Source: an uncultured Bacteroidales bacterium (GTDB taxonomy: Bacteria > Bacteroidota > Bacteroidia > Bacteroidales > Bacteroidaceae). Taken from it: DNA of 38,637 bases. The stretch is from NCBI GenBank assembly GCA_902766625.1, contig CACXEH010000014.1, positions 1-38,637 of the forward strand. The letters run 5' to 3'. Numbering within the stretch: the stretch's first letter is position 1; every line of letters begins with the position of its first letter. Made by a program: the position numbers and the translations under genes. The notes under the pieces were generated by a model that was given only the letters and a program-made list of their open reading frames with translations, did no database searches and was not told where the DNA came from. Of this stretch, positions 488 through 16,548 are shown one piece after another.

Positions 488-495
488 TACATTTG
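488..495 (+). promoter_or_regulatory. Bacteroidota -7 box ahead of the first FISUMP gene
   Basis: TACATTTG fits the TAnnTTTG -7 consensus of Bacteroidota sigma-ABfr promoters. It lies about 70 bp before the ATG at 565, giving a leader of roughly 60-65 nt. No good -33 TTTG is visible at the expected distance, so the call rests on the -7 box and its position. Confidence 0.5.
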
Positions 496-564: not shown

Positions 565-1489
565 ATGAAAAAAAATAACACGAGCCTTACTCTTTATTCT
601 TTATTGGTACTTCTCGTAATACACATGTATGCGTGTACTTCCCAGAGAGGAACATCGTATCCACAAGAAAACTGTCTGGCGTGTGAGGCTATAGGAATAG
701 AGTGTCTTGTCCGCGTCAACACTTATGATACCATCGGCATCAAGAACGGCCACGAATATGTGGACCTCGGACTGCCCAGCGGAAGGCTGTGGGCAACATG
801 CAACATCGGTGCAGAGAAACCCGAAGCCTTCGGAGATTATTTTCAATGGGCAGGGATCAGGACTGTACCTGGTCATGATAGCCTTTTTATCTACTCTTTA
901 AAAGGGAGAAAAGAATTTAGTCCATATCATTGTATCGACTCAACATTCAGAGATTCAATATTCCCGACACGGAAATTTACAAAATACAATTCCTACGCTA
1001 AACTTGGCATCGTGGACAACAAGAAAGAACTTGATTTGGAGGATGACGCCGCCCATGTGTATTGGGGTGCCAAATGGCGTATTCCGTCAAAAGACCAAAT
1101 TGAGGAACTGATATATTACACAAAGCAAACTAATTGTGTCGTAAATGGTGTCAGTGGAAAGAAATTAACAAGTAAGGTGGAAGGCTTTACGGATAAATTT
1201 ATTTTCTTACCATATTCTGCCTTCGTAATGATGTTTAGCGCAAACATAAAATTAAAAAAACCCAATCACAAGTATGTGTATACAATTGGTTCAGAAAAAG
1301 CAAGATGGACACATGGCATCATTGGGAATTATTGGATTCGCGAGCTTGCCCCCCCCCAAGTATATAGACAATCATGAGTTTATGGGTTGGGCTTATATCT
1401 TTCGCATACGAAATTCTGGTATATCTTCGAGATGTGAAACGACTCAAAGACATAAACCTTGTTCCATACGCCCCGTGTGGCAACAATAA
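565..1489 (+). pseudogene. FISUMP-domain exported protein, frameshifted at a C9 tract (possibly phase variable)
   Basis: The first frame runs from ATG 565 to a stop at 1377. It begins with a lipoprotein-like signal peptide (lipobox MYAC near residue 24) and contains the FISUMP hallmark NGHEYVDLGLPSG near residue 61. At 1349-1357 there are nine consecutive C. After them the reading frame meets a premature stop, while the +1 frame continues to 1489 and ends CSIRPVWQQ. That ending matches the intact C-terminus of the downstream paralogue (PIRPVWQK), so the +1 frame is the true 3' end. A tract of eight C would rejoin the frames. The alternatives are a fixed inactivating mutation, slipped-strand phase variation, or an error in the assembled sequence. 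FISUMP proteins are secreted surface proteins of unknown function. Confidence 0.75.
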
Positions 1490-1602: not shown

Positions 1603-2436
1603 ATGAAAAAAAACATTATCATCAGTCTTTTCCTTTTACTGTTTTCTCCATATAGTGTAAAAGCAAAACAGCAAAAAGAAAACACCAAGAACGGCCACGA
1701 ATATGTGGACCTCGGACTACCCAGTGGCACACTGTGGGCAACATGCAACATTGGGGCAGAGAAACCCGAGAACAAAGGCGACTATTTTATGTGGGGAGAA
1801 ACACAACCTTTAGATTGGGACAGTATTTTCATAGAAGGCTGGGGTATGACATATTACGACAGACGATTGAGCAAGATACTCGATGAGATGCCATCCTCAG
1901 GCACAGCACGAACTCATTTTTTTGAAAAGACATGTTACAAATATGCTAAAGACATAACCCCGAAAGGCAATCTGAGAGTGACAAAATATTGCACCGATGC
2001 CATCCATGGCATCGTTGACGGCAAGGAGGAACTGGATCTGGAGGATGATGCAGCCTGTGTGCTTTGGGGTAAACACTGGCGGACTCCATCCAGAGCACAG
2101 ATAGTAGAACTTATCCGTGGCGGCTATACCACGGTCAGCATAACAGAAAGAAACGGTGTGCCAGGTTGCCTTGTTACTGGCACAAAAGCAGGATATACCG
2201 ACAAGTCCATCTTCTTTCCTTATACAGGTGGAAAGACTGCCTTATCCTTAAAGGATGCCAAATCACTGACTGGCACACCGGCAGACACATGCGGATGTTA
2301 TTGGCTACGCAATGGAGGGGAGGGAATATCCAGTGGTGCCATTTTCTTCAACTTCAGAAAAAAACATCGATTTGACTTTCATGGTTTTTCACCAAGAAAT
2401 TATGGTCTCCCCATACGCCCCGTGTGGCAAAAATAA
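1603..2436 (+). CDS. FISUMP-domain exported protein (intact paralogue)
   Basis: This 277-residue protein has an N-terminal signal peptide (MKKNIIISLFLLLF, ending near KAKQQ at residues 22-26) followed directly by the FISUMP-type motif NGHEYVDLGLPSGTLWATC at about residues 30-48. The ending GLPIRPVWQK is typical of this paralogous family in Bacteroidota. It is a tandem copy of the frameshifted gene at 565-1489: 83 bases at 1687-1769 match 742-824 with only seven differences. The family is thought to be surface or secreted, with no biochemical function I can assign. The ATG at 1603 is preceded by an A/T-rich, SD-free leader, as is usual here. Confidence 0.8.
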   Translation: MKKNIIISLFLLLFSPYSVKAKQQKENTKNGHEYVDLGLPSGTLWATCNIGAEKPENKGDYFMWGETQPLDWDSIFIEGWGMTYYDRRLSKILDEMPSSGTARTHFFEKTCYKYAKDITPKGNLRVTKYCTDAIHGIVDGKEELDLEDDAACVLWGKHWRTPSRAQIVELIRGGYTTVSITERNGVPGCLVTGTKAGYTDKSIFFPYTGGKTALSLKDAKSLTGTPADTCGCYWLRNGGEGISSGAIFFNFRKKHRFDFHGFSPRNYGLPIRPVWQK

Positions 2437-13874: not shown

Positions 13875-16382
13875 ATGTACCGATTTATTCTTGTCTTCTT
13901 TTTCCTCCCTGCCATTCTTCAGGCGCAACACGTCAGTTTCGTTTTTCAAGACATATCCTTTGCCGAGGCACTGCAACAACTCAATGAACAATCGAAAGAG
14001 TACAGCGTCAATTTTATGTACGATGAACTGGAGAATTTCCATGTAACGACAACCATCAAGCGCAAAACCATCCCTGAAGCCATACGACAGCTGATAGGTT
14101 TCTACCCTATCAGGATGACTGTAGACACAGACAAGAATATCTATGTAGAATGCACCCACAAGACAGACCGCCACCTGACAGGTACCGTTATCAATGAAAA
14201 CGGCGAGCCTGTAGTATATGCCAATATCGTGCTACTCCATCCTGCCGACTCCTCTGTAGTAGGCGGTGGCGTTTCAAATGAAAGCGGTGTTTTTGTCATT
14301 CCGTACGAACACCCTCAGGTCATCGCCCGTATCTCCTATATCGGTTACAAAACAGTTTATCAGCTCTGTTCCCAAGAAGACATAGGTATAATCCGTATGC
14401 AACACAATACAGTCAAACTTGACGGTGTAACTGTCAAGGGAGATATTCCTATTGTCAAAGCCGAAAACGGCCACCTCGTCTACAACATGCCGCAGTTGCT
14501 TGAACAGCTGCCTGCCGATGATGCCTACGAGGCACTGACACGCATCCCCGGTGTAATGGATTCCGGTGAAGACCTCACTTTTTGCGGACAGGCCGTCACC
14601 CTCATTATCAACGGGAAGCCTACTACGCTAAGCGCAGATCACGTCAAAGAGCGACTGAAAGAAATGCCTGCCTCACAACTGGCCAAGGCCGAAGTGCTGC
14701 CATCAGCACCTGCCAAGTACCACGTGCGCGGTATGGCCATCAATATCGTGACAAAGGACTATACCGGCAGCCACCAGCTGTTAGGGCAACTGCGTGGACT
14801 TTATCGCCAAAATACATACGGGTACGGCAAACTCAAAGGCAGCATAATCTTCCAAAATGGCAAATTTGGCCTGGATGCCTATTATGACTTTGGCTATGGC
14901 GACGCTTACGGCAAAGTGAAACATGAAGCCCGTCACCCCTTAGGCAATCAGCGGATAGATTATTCCGACCATACGGAACGCACCAGCCGCAACATCCGCC
15001 ATAACTACCGCATAGGGATGGACTATGCCTTCACGGACAACCACCGGTTAAATCTTGCTTATACAGGTGAGTGGCTGTCTAACGACGGCATAAATATCAG
15101 CACTGGTTTGGAAAAAGCTGTACAACACTCCCTGCTGCACAATTACATACACAATGTCGATGCCGGCTACTACCTGCCTTTCGGTCTGGAACTCAACGTG
15201 TCGTACACCAACTACCAGAATCCACGCACCCAGCATCTGGAAAGCAAACTATATGACAGGCAGCGCAACTTGACAGCCGAAAATAACCAACGCATTAGCA
15301 AGTGGCAGTTCACAGCTGACCAGACACATACCTTCAAAAAAGGTTGGCAACTGAATTACGGCATAGAGGCGCAATTGACCGATAACAACAGCTATCAGAT
15401 GACGCTTAATTTTAACGGCCAGACACTGCCTGATGCCACAAGCCGTGTAAATTATAACGAACGCATCCTGAATGCCTATGCAGGCTTCAGTAAACAGTTC
15501 AGCCCGTCGCTCAGTCTGGAATCCTCCATCGCAGCCGAACAATATCACGCCCCGAGGTGGAACGATTGGCGCATTTACCCTTCGCTGAGCTTAATGTGGA
15601 ACATCAATAAGCAGAACCTGCTCAACATGGCCCTCAGTTCACAAACCGTGTATCCTTCCTATTGGAGCACCATGAGCAGTATCTTCTACTCATCGGCCTA
15701 CAGTGAGATATGGGGCAATCCCGACCTGAAGCCATCATCAATTTACAAATTCGACCTCATGTGGCAGCTGAGCCAACGCTACACATTTGGCACCTTCGTC
15801 AGCCTGCAGCCCGATTTCACCGTACAGTTAGCCTACCAACCCTCAGACCGCATGGCGGTAGTAATGAAAGAGACCAATTTCAATTACTCTAACCTGATAG
15901 GTGTCTATGCCTCAGCCCGCTTCAATGCCGGCCAGTGGCTTAATGGTAATGTTAATCTTACCGGTCTATATCGCCATGACAAGAGCGACTATTTCTTCGA
16001 CCTGCCCTTCAACCGCCGCCATTTGTCGCTGATTCTGGGCGGAAATATAGCCTCCAAATTACTGAAACGTCATAATCTGATGCTCATGCTTAGCCCCTTC
16101 GTGCAGTCAAGTGCCATTCAAGGTGTCTATGACATTGAGGCTTTCTTCCGGCTTAACAGTTCGCTACGCTGGACCTCTAATGACGGTCAATGGAGCCTCA
16201 CCATCAGCGGTGACAACCTGACCAACAGCCATATCAAGACCCGTTCACGCCTCAAAAACCAAGACTACAGTATGCGTTTATGGCTTGTCATACCCAATGT
16301 CACCCTTACCGCCATCTACCGCATAGGCGGATATAAGGAGAAGAAACACAAAGAGGTGGACACCTCGCGTATGGGTTACTGA
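13875..16382 (+). CDS. TonB-dependent receptor with STN signalling domain (OMP_b-brl type)
   Basis: This outer-membrane receptor of 835 residues has a signal peptide (residues 1-17, ending LQAQ) and an STN domain (about 20-95, VSFVFQDISFAEALQQL...). A carboxypeptidase-regulatory-like domain follows (about 98-180, LTGTVINENGEPVVYANIVL), then a plug, then a C-terminal beta-barrel of the outer membrane beta-barrel family. STN domains pass the ligand signal to an anti-sigma factor, and the sigma and anti-sigma genes immediately precede it. No SusD-like lipoprotein gene follows, so it is not a standard glycan-uptake pair. Its ligand (iron complex, peptide or other) is unknown. Repeat element B follows 62 bp after the stop. 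Confidence 0.88.
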   Translation: MYRFILVFFFLPAILQAQHVSFVFQDISFAEALQQLNEQSKEYSVNFMYDELENFHVTTTIKRKTIPEAIRQLIGFYPIRMTVDTDKNIYVECTHKTDRHLTGTVINENGEPVVYANIVLLHPADSSVVGGGVSNESGVFVIPYEHPQVIARISYIGYKTVYQLCSQEDIGIIRMQHNTVKLDGVTVKGDIPIVKAENGHLVYNMPQLLEQLPADDAYEALTRIPGVMDSGEDLTFCGQAVTLIINGKPTTLSADHVKERLKEMPASQLAKAEVLPSAPAKYHVRGMAINIVTKDYTGSHQLLGQLRGLYRQNTYGYGKLKGSIIFQNGKFGLDAYYDFGYGDAYGKVKHEARHPLGNQRIDYSDHTERTSRNIRHNYRIGMDYAFTDNHRLNLAYTGEWLSNDGINISTGLEKAVQHSLLHNYIHNVDAGYYLPFGLELNVSYTNYQNPRTQHLESKLYDRQRNLTAENNQRISKWQFTADQTHTFKKGWQLNYGIEAQLTDNNSYQMTLNFNGQTLPDATSRVNYNERILNAYAGFSKQFSPSLSLESSIAAEQYHAPRWNDWRIYPSLSLMWNINKQNLLNMALSSQTVYPSYWSTMSSIFYSSAYSEIWGNPDLKPSSIYKFDLMWQLSQRYTFGTFVSLQPDFTVQLAYQPSDRMAVVMKETNFNYSNLIGVYASARFNAGQWLNGNVNLTGLYRHDKSDYFFDLPFNRRHLSLILGGNIASKLLKRHNLMLMLSPFVQSSAIQGVYDIEAFFRLNSSLRWTSNDGQWSLTISGDNLTNSHIKTRSRLKNQDYSMRLWLVIPNVTLTAIYRIGGYKEKKHKEVDTSRMGY

Positions 16383-16444
16383 CAAGGAGCCAACTGCCAG
16401 GGGAAAATATACGGGAGGATAGGCAGAAACGTCTCATTCCTCGC

Positions 16445-16548
16445 GATATATTTTCCGTTCCATCGGATGGAATGTAGATTCCGTCGGATGGAACATATAT
16501 TCCATAGGCTGGAACATACGTCCAATGGAACGGAATGGAAAAAATATC
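16445..16548. repeat. 104-bp palindromic element, copy B
   Basis: Dyads start at 16457, 16478, 16499 and 16520, exactly 21 bp apart. The first reads GTTCCAT CGG ATGGAAT and the second ATTCCGT CGG ATGGAAC, while the fourth is degenerate. Linkers are GTAG, ATAT and ATAC. The terminal arms GATATATTTTCC (16445-16456) and GGAAAAAATATC (16537-16548) are inverted copies matching at 11 of 12 positions, the best of the four elements. It lies 62 bp after the receptor stop and upstream of the pnp promoter. Confidence 0.88.

Follow-up and report, generated by a model that had tools for sequence, protein, structure and literature searches.

A nine-cytosine tract splits the reading frame of a FISUMP/Lcl_C-like gene and is a candidate phase-variation site in an uncultured Bacteroidales bacterium

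A run of nine cytosines (C9) splits the reading frame of a FISUMP/Lcl_C-like gene (gene 1) in an uncultured Bacteroidales bacterium of the Bacteroidaceae: the split falls exactly at the tract, and homology to the same protein family is found on both sides of it. The DNA analysed, hereafter the window, is a contig of 38,637 nucleotides (CACXEH010000014.1, forward strand), which is contig C14 of a draft genome of 2,288,224 bases in 138 contigs (G000). With moderate confidence, we regard C9 as a site of slipped-strand mispairing that switches a lectin-like surface-protein gene. Replication slippage would add or remove a C in the tract, and a clonal population would then contain some cells making the 307-residue read-through protein and others making the 270-residue form, in which the final strands would be missing together with the family's invariant R and V. 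The present assembly would correspond to the truncated state. The benefit of such switching might be escape from phage or from immunity, or a change of ligand. An on/off switch is likely, though unproven, because similar runs in the genus differ in length between copies; that C9 itself varies in length, that the change is reversible and that the short form loses function are points that we infer. The features discussed below are located in Table 1.

Table 1. Features of gene 1 and its surroundings in the window, and C counts in the leader families of the genus
Feature	Position	Strand	Basis or remark
Match to TAnnTTTG, TACATTTG	488..495	+	69 nt upstream of gene 1
Gene 1, zero frame, truncated state, 270 aa	565..1377	+	ATG at 565 to TGA
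C9 tract, candidate slippage site	1349..1357	+	codons 262-265 of gene 1
Gene 1 tail in the +1 frame, with the family's conserved C-terminus	1358..1489	+	homology and profile score
TGA ending the truncated form	1375..1377	+	starts 18 nt beyond the end of C9
SIRPVWQQ, with the family's invariant R and V	1463..1486	+	alignment
Intact paralogue, 277 aa, ending LPIRPVWQK	1603..2436	+	translation, alignment
Leader family in G000			8/10 C, extra A
Leader family in G011			9/10 C
Leader family L100, L142 (G011), L174 (G013)			10/8 C, G013 copy 9
Leader family L083 (G013) / L093 (G008)			12/11 C, before a BspA-type LRR gene
Leader family in G014			8/8 C

An earlier note on this DNA had claimed that the tract shifts the first FISUMP-like gene into an early stop, while the family's ending SIRPVWQQ lies in the +1 frame. 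Both claims were borne out: the zero frame closes at a TGA shortly after the tract, and the +1 frame runs across the tract with no stop until a TAA at 1487-1489. The two registers of the tract give 270 or 307 residues, so that tract length alters the product; the read-through product has 43 residues that are absent from the truncated form, which carries six foreign ones instead, in agreement with the predicted loss of "about 40" from the C-terminus. The 43-codon tail is free of stops, and the chance of such an open tail is about 0.13. Homology was assessed with a profile built from 28 homologues, gene 1 being left out. The read-through form scored 171.9 bits and the truncated form 160.9 bits, while none of 200 read-throughs with shuffled tails equalled 171.9 (mean 161.2, maximum 166.8), and the +1-frame tail alone scored 11.0 bits (E 0.0028). 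The 29-row family alignment has 13 invariant columns, of which R302 and V304 fall on the far side of the tract; the tract itself adjoins a loop longer than in most other family members. These data bear on the alternative that gene 1 is a recent pseudogene, a dispensable duplicate truncated when a single indel struck a homopolymer prone to mutation, with no selected switching. We consider this unlikely, although it deserves serious attention: an intact paralogue adjoins the gene and could cover its function, homopolymers collect indels without selection, and a fragment of the paralogue elsewhere in G000 (described below) shows that such genes do decay in this genome, whereas the sole lesion of gene 1 sits at the tract, and the tail retains its frame and its conserved residues.

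The tract is the only run of nine C or G anywhere in the window, its length being exact, and dinucleotide shuffles of the window led us to expect 0.04 such runs, with at least one in three of 100 shuffles. Homopolymeric G/C tracts of at least eight bases are known to slip, and C9 has the length (at least eight G/C) of a slipped-strand contingency locus, although a position near the 3' end is unusual for a contingency tract. Since CCC is the most frequent proline codon in five genes of the window (26 of 63), a C run at Ala-Pro-Pro is unexceptional. A C run was absent from this position in every homologue inspected, so the tract is not conserved. In three relatives on contigs of named genomes, the domain-bearing frames examined contained no C run of at least six (one frame of RUG376, a genome of this genus from an uncultured Prevotellaceae bacterium, has a G6), and a scan of viral contigs with the flanks of C9 gave no matches. 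CCC is a slippery context, as known from work on proline tRNA suppressors. A recoding event could thereby be envisaged, in which ribosomes slipping by +1 on successive CCC codons, or slippage during transcription, would yield long and short proteins in constant proportion from a single DNA state. The required shift is indeed +1 on CCC codons and the family is coded in both frames; as none of the aligned homologues has a split frame at this position, which argues against a conserved recoding site, we judge recoding very improbable. Upstream of gene 1 there is a match to TAnnTTTG, the Bacteroidota -7 motif; this motif occurs seven times in 2721 bases against 2.83 expected, making a single match weak.

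Gene 1 begins with a hydrophobic, signal-like segment ending in ...IHMYAC, in which Cys24 resembles a lipobox, and from its sequence the product is probably exported and lipid-anchored. This signal-like N-terminus is in keeping with the proposal that the gene encodes an exported protein, and the intact paralogue that the note had placed next to it is present; the two are 45% identical, and the paralogue likewise starts with a hydrophobic, signal-like segment. The FISUMP label has no support from a curated profile for either window gene: Pfam (E up to 1) returned no family for gene 1 or the paralogue, NCBIfam returned nothing for gene 1 and only beta-lactamase matches far under their cut-offs for the paralogue, and none of TIGR02145, PF09603 and PF07603 was among the matches listed for the paralogue or for gene 1 in its truncated or read-through form. 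Homologues do match, with Lcl_C found in 19 of the 29 aligned family members and TIGR02145 (FISUMP) in 11 of them (E up to 0.1). Because such a match is shown for homologues of the window genes and not for these genes themselves, we label them "FISUMP/Lcl_C-like" rather than filed members of the family. Up to 17 genes of this domain are described per Ornithobacterium genome (PMC6421346, excerpt), and the words "phase" and "frameshift" are absent from that excerpt. On another contig of G000 (C30, near 16372-16515; locus L012, 1402-1643), the 3' part of the window paralogue occurs as an orphan, frameshifted fragment, and after it comes a stretch of 53 nt with 86% identity to the gene 1 promoter region; together they look like remnants of a duplication or recombination.

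Diversity-generating retroelements have among their targets proteins with Fib_succ_major or DUF1566 (now Lcl_C) domains (PMC4159848, excerpt). These targets belong to the same domain families as gene 1, and it is their C-terminal part that is varied. Gene 1 as such a target was considered and rejected: no match to PF00078 (reverse transcriptase) was found in G000, the control being positive in three of 14 genomes.

The structure predicted by AlphaFold2 with the 29-sequence alignment had a pLDDT of 75 and a pTM of 0.73. Its best VIA-align match was the C-terminal domain of Legionella Lcl (8q4e; Z 7.2, rmsd 3.0, 108 residues, 14% identity), and most of the other 49 structural rows shown were C-type-lectin-like domains, the exceptions including an FGE-type enzyme and a type IX secretion protein. 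The structural alignments begin near residue 50-66 and extend to the C-terminus. Foldseek gave no rows at E up to 0.001 (best E 0.55), and a PDB search by sequence profile gave none. The comparison is suggestive only of a shared C-type-lectin-like fold, as a Z below 8 may reflect a mere common arrangement. Lcl binds glycosaminoglycans (PMC11162425, excerpt); the collagen-like stalk of the Legionella pneumophila protein is not seen in gene 1. In the model, strands 265-267, 270-272, 275-282 and 289-294 all come after the tract, and for this reason normal folding would not be expected of the truncated form.

G000 contains 35 C/G runs of at least six bases and seven of at least eight. There are three runs of at least nine against 0.56 extrapolated (P 0.02), a modest excess of long runs; the expected value comes from the genus-wide decay between 6 and 8 nt (0.252 per base), and the count of three takes as one locus the runs at the contig ends of C20 (13-28, 16 C) and C94 (1-25, 25 G), because the same 11-nt word, on the C-strand side, stands shortly before the tract in both. 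Possibly the assembler split a single locus into these two runs. A gene that we read as encoding a helix-turn-helix regulator has the 16-nt run of C20 at its 3' end; this gene has no Pfam match, and no homologue of it was found in the 18 other genomes of the genus (E 1e-8). Elsewhere, a run of eight C on C98 lies 142 nt upstream of a gene with a signal-like start, and an 8-nt run on C71 lies at the end of a Polysacc_synt_2 gene.

That assembler had trouble with such tracts, as the two long runs at contig ends imply, and this is relevant to a further explanation, namely that the C count of C9 is an assembly or sequencing error and gene 1 is intact. Homopolymers are error-prone and the genome is a draft in 138 contigs; on the other hand, an A8 run stands right after the start codon in both FISUMP-like genes (568-575 and 1606-1613), and both runs are in frame with the signal-like N-termini, which argues that 8-nt A homopolymers were assembled sensibly. 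We hold a miscount to be improbable, though still a serious alternative.

Across 19 genomes of the genus there are 2984 runs of at least six, 190 of at least eight and 34 of at least ten, the last against 12.1 expected by geometric decay (Poisson P 2e-7). Omitting G009, in which the runs sit in odd G-rich repeats at contig ends, leaves 31 against 11.2. Long runs are not peculiar to the genus, since 82 of 121 genomes of the wider family have at least one run of at least ten. Placement relative to genes, called by simple ORF selection, was examined for 158 of the 190 runs of at least eight, with 11 near stretch ends set aside. The genic share drops with tract length, from 29/41 at 6-7 nt to 50/91 at 8, 11/29 at 9 and 6/27 at 10 or more (non-genic 12/41, 41/91, 18/29 and 21/27, respectively); we do not take this trend of the non-genic share as a sign of function because purifying selection gives the same. 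An association of tracts with signal-peptide genes was tried and was not significant (9/18 for tracts of at least nine against a baseline of 34/99, P 0.29; 11/26 for 8-nt tracts). With a spacing window chosen post hoc, 5 of 28 tracts of at least nine stood at the spacing from a -7 motif against 0.94 expected, and 2 of 34 8-nt tracts did so against 1.37 expected.

Information on tract stability came from comparing the flanks of 166 tracts of at least seven, among which five leader families were homologous on both sides (Table 1). The C count differs between copies in four of the five, all in draft genomes. The two leaders of G000 carry their tracts at the same point (C91, L045:4014-4021, 8 C; C96, L047:3952-3961, 10 C), 115-119 nt upstream of two genes with signal-like, mutually unlike starts, and their flanks are 89-91% identical. 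They also differ by one A at the tract end, three bases in all, and because of this extra A they are not a pure C-slippage pair. The C96 leader has its only good match in C91, with short matches of 32 and 46 bases in two other genomes. Another family is that of L083 and L093, whose flanks match at 250/250 and 249/250 bases (499/500 in total) and whose genomes, G013 and G008, are the only ones of the 19 with this leader (E 1e-4). The two G011 copies L100 and L142 are alike at 133/133 downstream bases, as far as the contig end; in this repeated element, shared with L174, the tract is directly 3' of ATGAACAATA or a near copy. Pairs with one-sided or weak flanks were left out (L101/L187, 10/9; L182/L185, 9/8; L060/L205 and L076/L205, 8/8; L160/L163, 8/8), as were a pair from the odd repeats of G009 (21/11) and a palindromic one within L062 (7/8). 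An Rfam search of seven loci, comprising leader tracts or the window gene, gave no match. Assembly error could be present among these C-count differences of draft genomes. Taken as they stand, they point to a general instability of 8-12-nt C tracts in the clade, which argues against a one-off pseudogene and supports switching at C9 indirectly.

The genes that carry or follow tracts elsewhere include several of surface type. Surface LRR proteins and DNA methylases phase-vary in other bacteria, and in the genus BspA-type LRR proteins lie behind the tracts of L093, L096 and L049, the L093 gene being common to L083. At DUF3575 genes of two species, a G tract of 11 (L090, G011) or 10 (L088, G018) precedes a TAnnTTTG motif by 40 or 47 nt; the flanks of these two loci gave no BLAST match to each other. 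In L107 (G008:C161; tracts at 1502-1511 and 2771-2780), an EcoRI-type methylase gene has an internal G10, in frame here, and a C10 run 280 nt upstream, and the methylase is a candidate for phase variation. L054 encodes an FGE-sulfatase-type protein, and other tract-bearing genes have Sel1, FKBP, LytTR or tyrosine-phosphatase domains; seven of the 20 proteins scanned gave no domain match. We also observed a G10 (L094:1501-1510, G012) in an open-ended frame of 517 residues, within its signal-peptide-like start, so that a tract of altered length would disrupt the frame immediately, and, in another genus of the family, a G11 right after the ATG of a 504-residue frame that can be read as the start of a TonB-dependent (SusC-type) receptor (L121, G020:C9). 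It is quite possible, though somewhat less likely than not, that the genus has a multi-locus slippage phasome of which the window gene is one member. Such a phasome would comprise C/G tracts of at least nine bases in leaders, some 40-49 nt upstream of the -7 motif, and within genes, and it would act on surface proteins of the LRR and lectin-like kinds, on DUF3575 proteins and on a DNA methylase.

Campylobacter jejuni NCTC11168 has 29 poly-G/C loci with tracts of at least seven (PMC4965091, excerpt). The C9 locus resembles these loci in that a G/C tract shifts the frame of a surface-type gene and several tracts occur per genome; it differs in phylum and in the position of the tract near the 3' end, with most of the protein still made, and G000 has fewer tracts of at least eight (seven places), while switching at C9 is only proposed. 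In nadA of Neisseria meningitidis the tract alters promoter spacing (PMC2791445, excerpt), which recalls the promoter-type tracts of the genus (such as L090, L088 and L196), whereas the window tract is coding. A promoter role for these genus tracts is what we infer from motif spacing only. Phase variation in gut Bacteroidales, according to a 2025 review, proceeds by DNA inversion (PMC12632263), and the words "slipped" and "homopolymer" do not occur in its main text. These inversion systems belong to the same order and target surface molecules and restriction-modification genes, but they depend on recombinases, whereas homopolymer slippage is proposed for C9. A second 2025 review of phase variation treats invertases in Bacteroides and asks why multi-locus systems seem restricted to pathogens (PMC11868660, excerpt). 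No report of slippage tracts was found among the listed titles and abstract openings of literature on Prevotella, Bacteroidota, Bacteroidetes and Bacteroides.

Since both reviews give Bacteroides phase variation as inversion, slippage tracts would be a notable addition. If the phasome reading is true, Bacteroidales would phase-vary by slippage besides DNA inversion, and would do so in apparent commensals; a slippage phasome in the genus, if real, would bear on the question of pathogen restriction raised in the second review (PMC11868660, excerpt). In such assemblies, a frameshift at a C tract would then be no sufficient reason to file a gene as a pseudogene before the reads have been checked.
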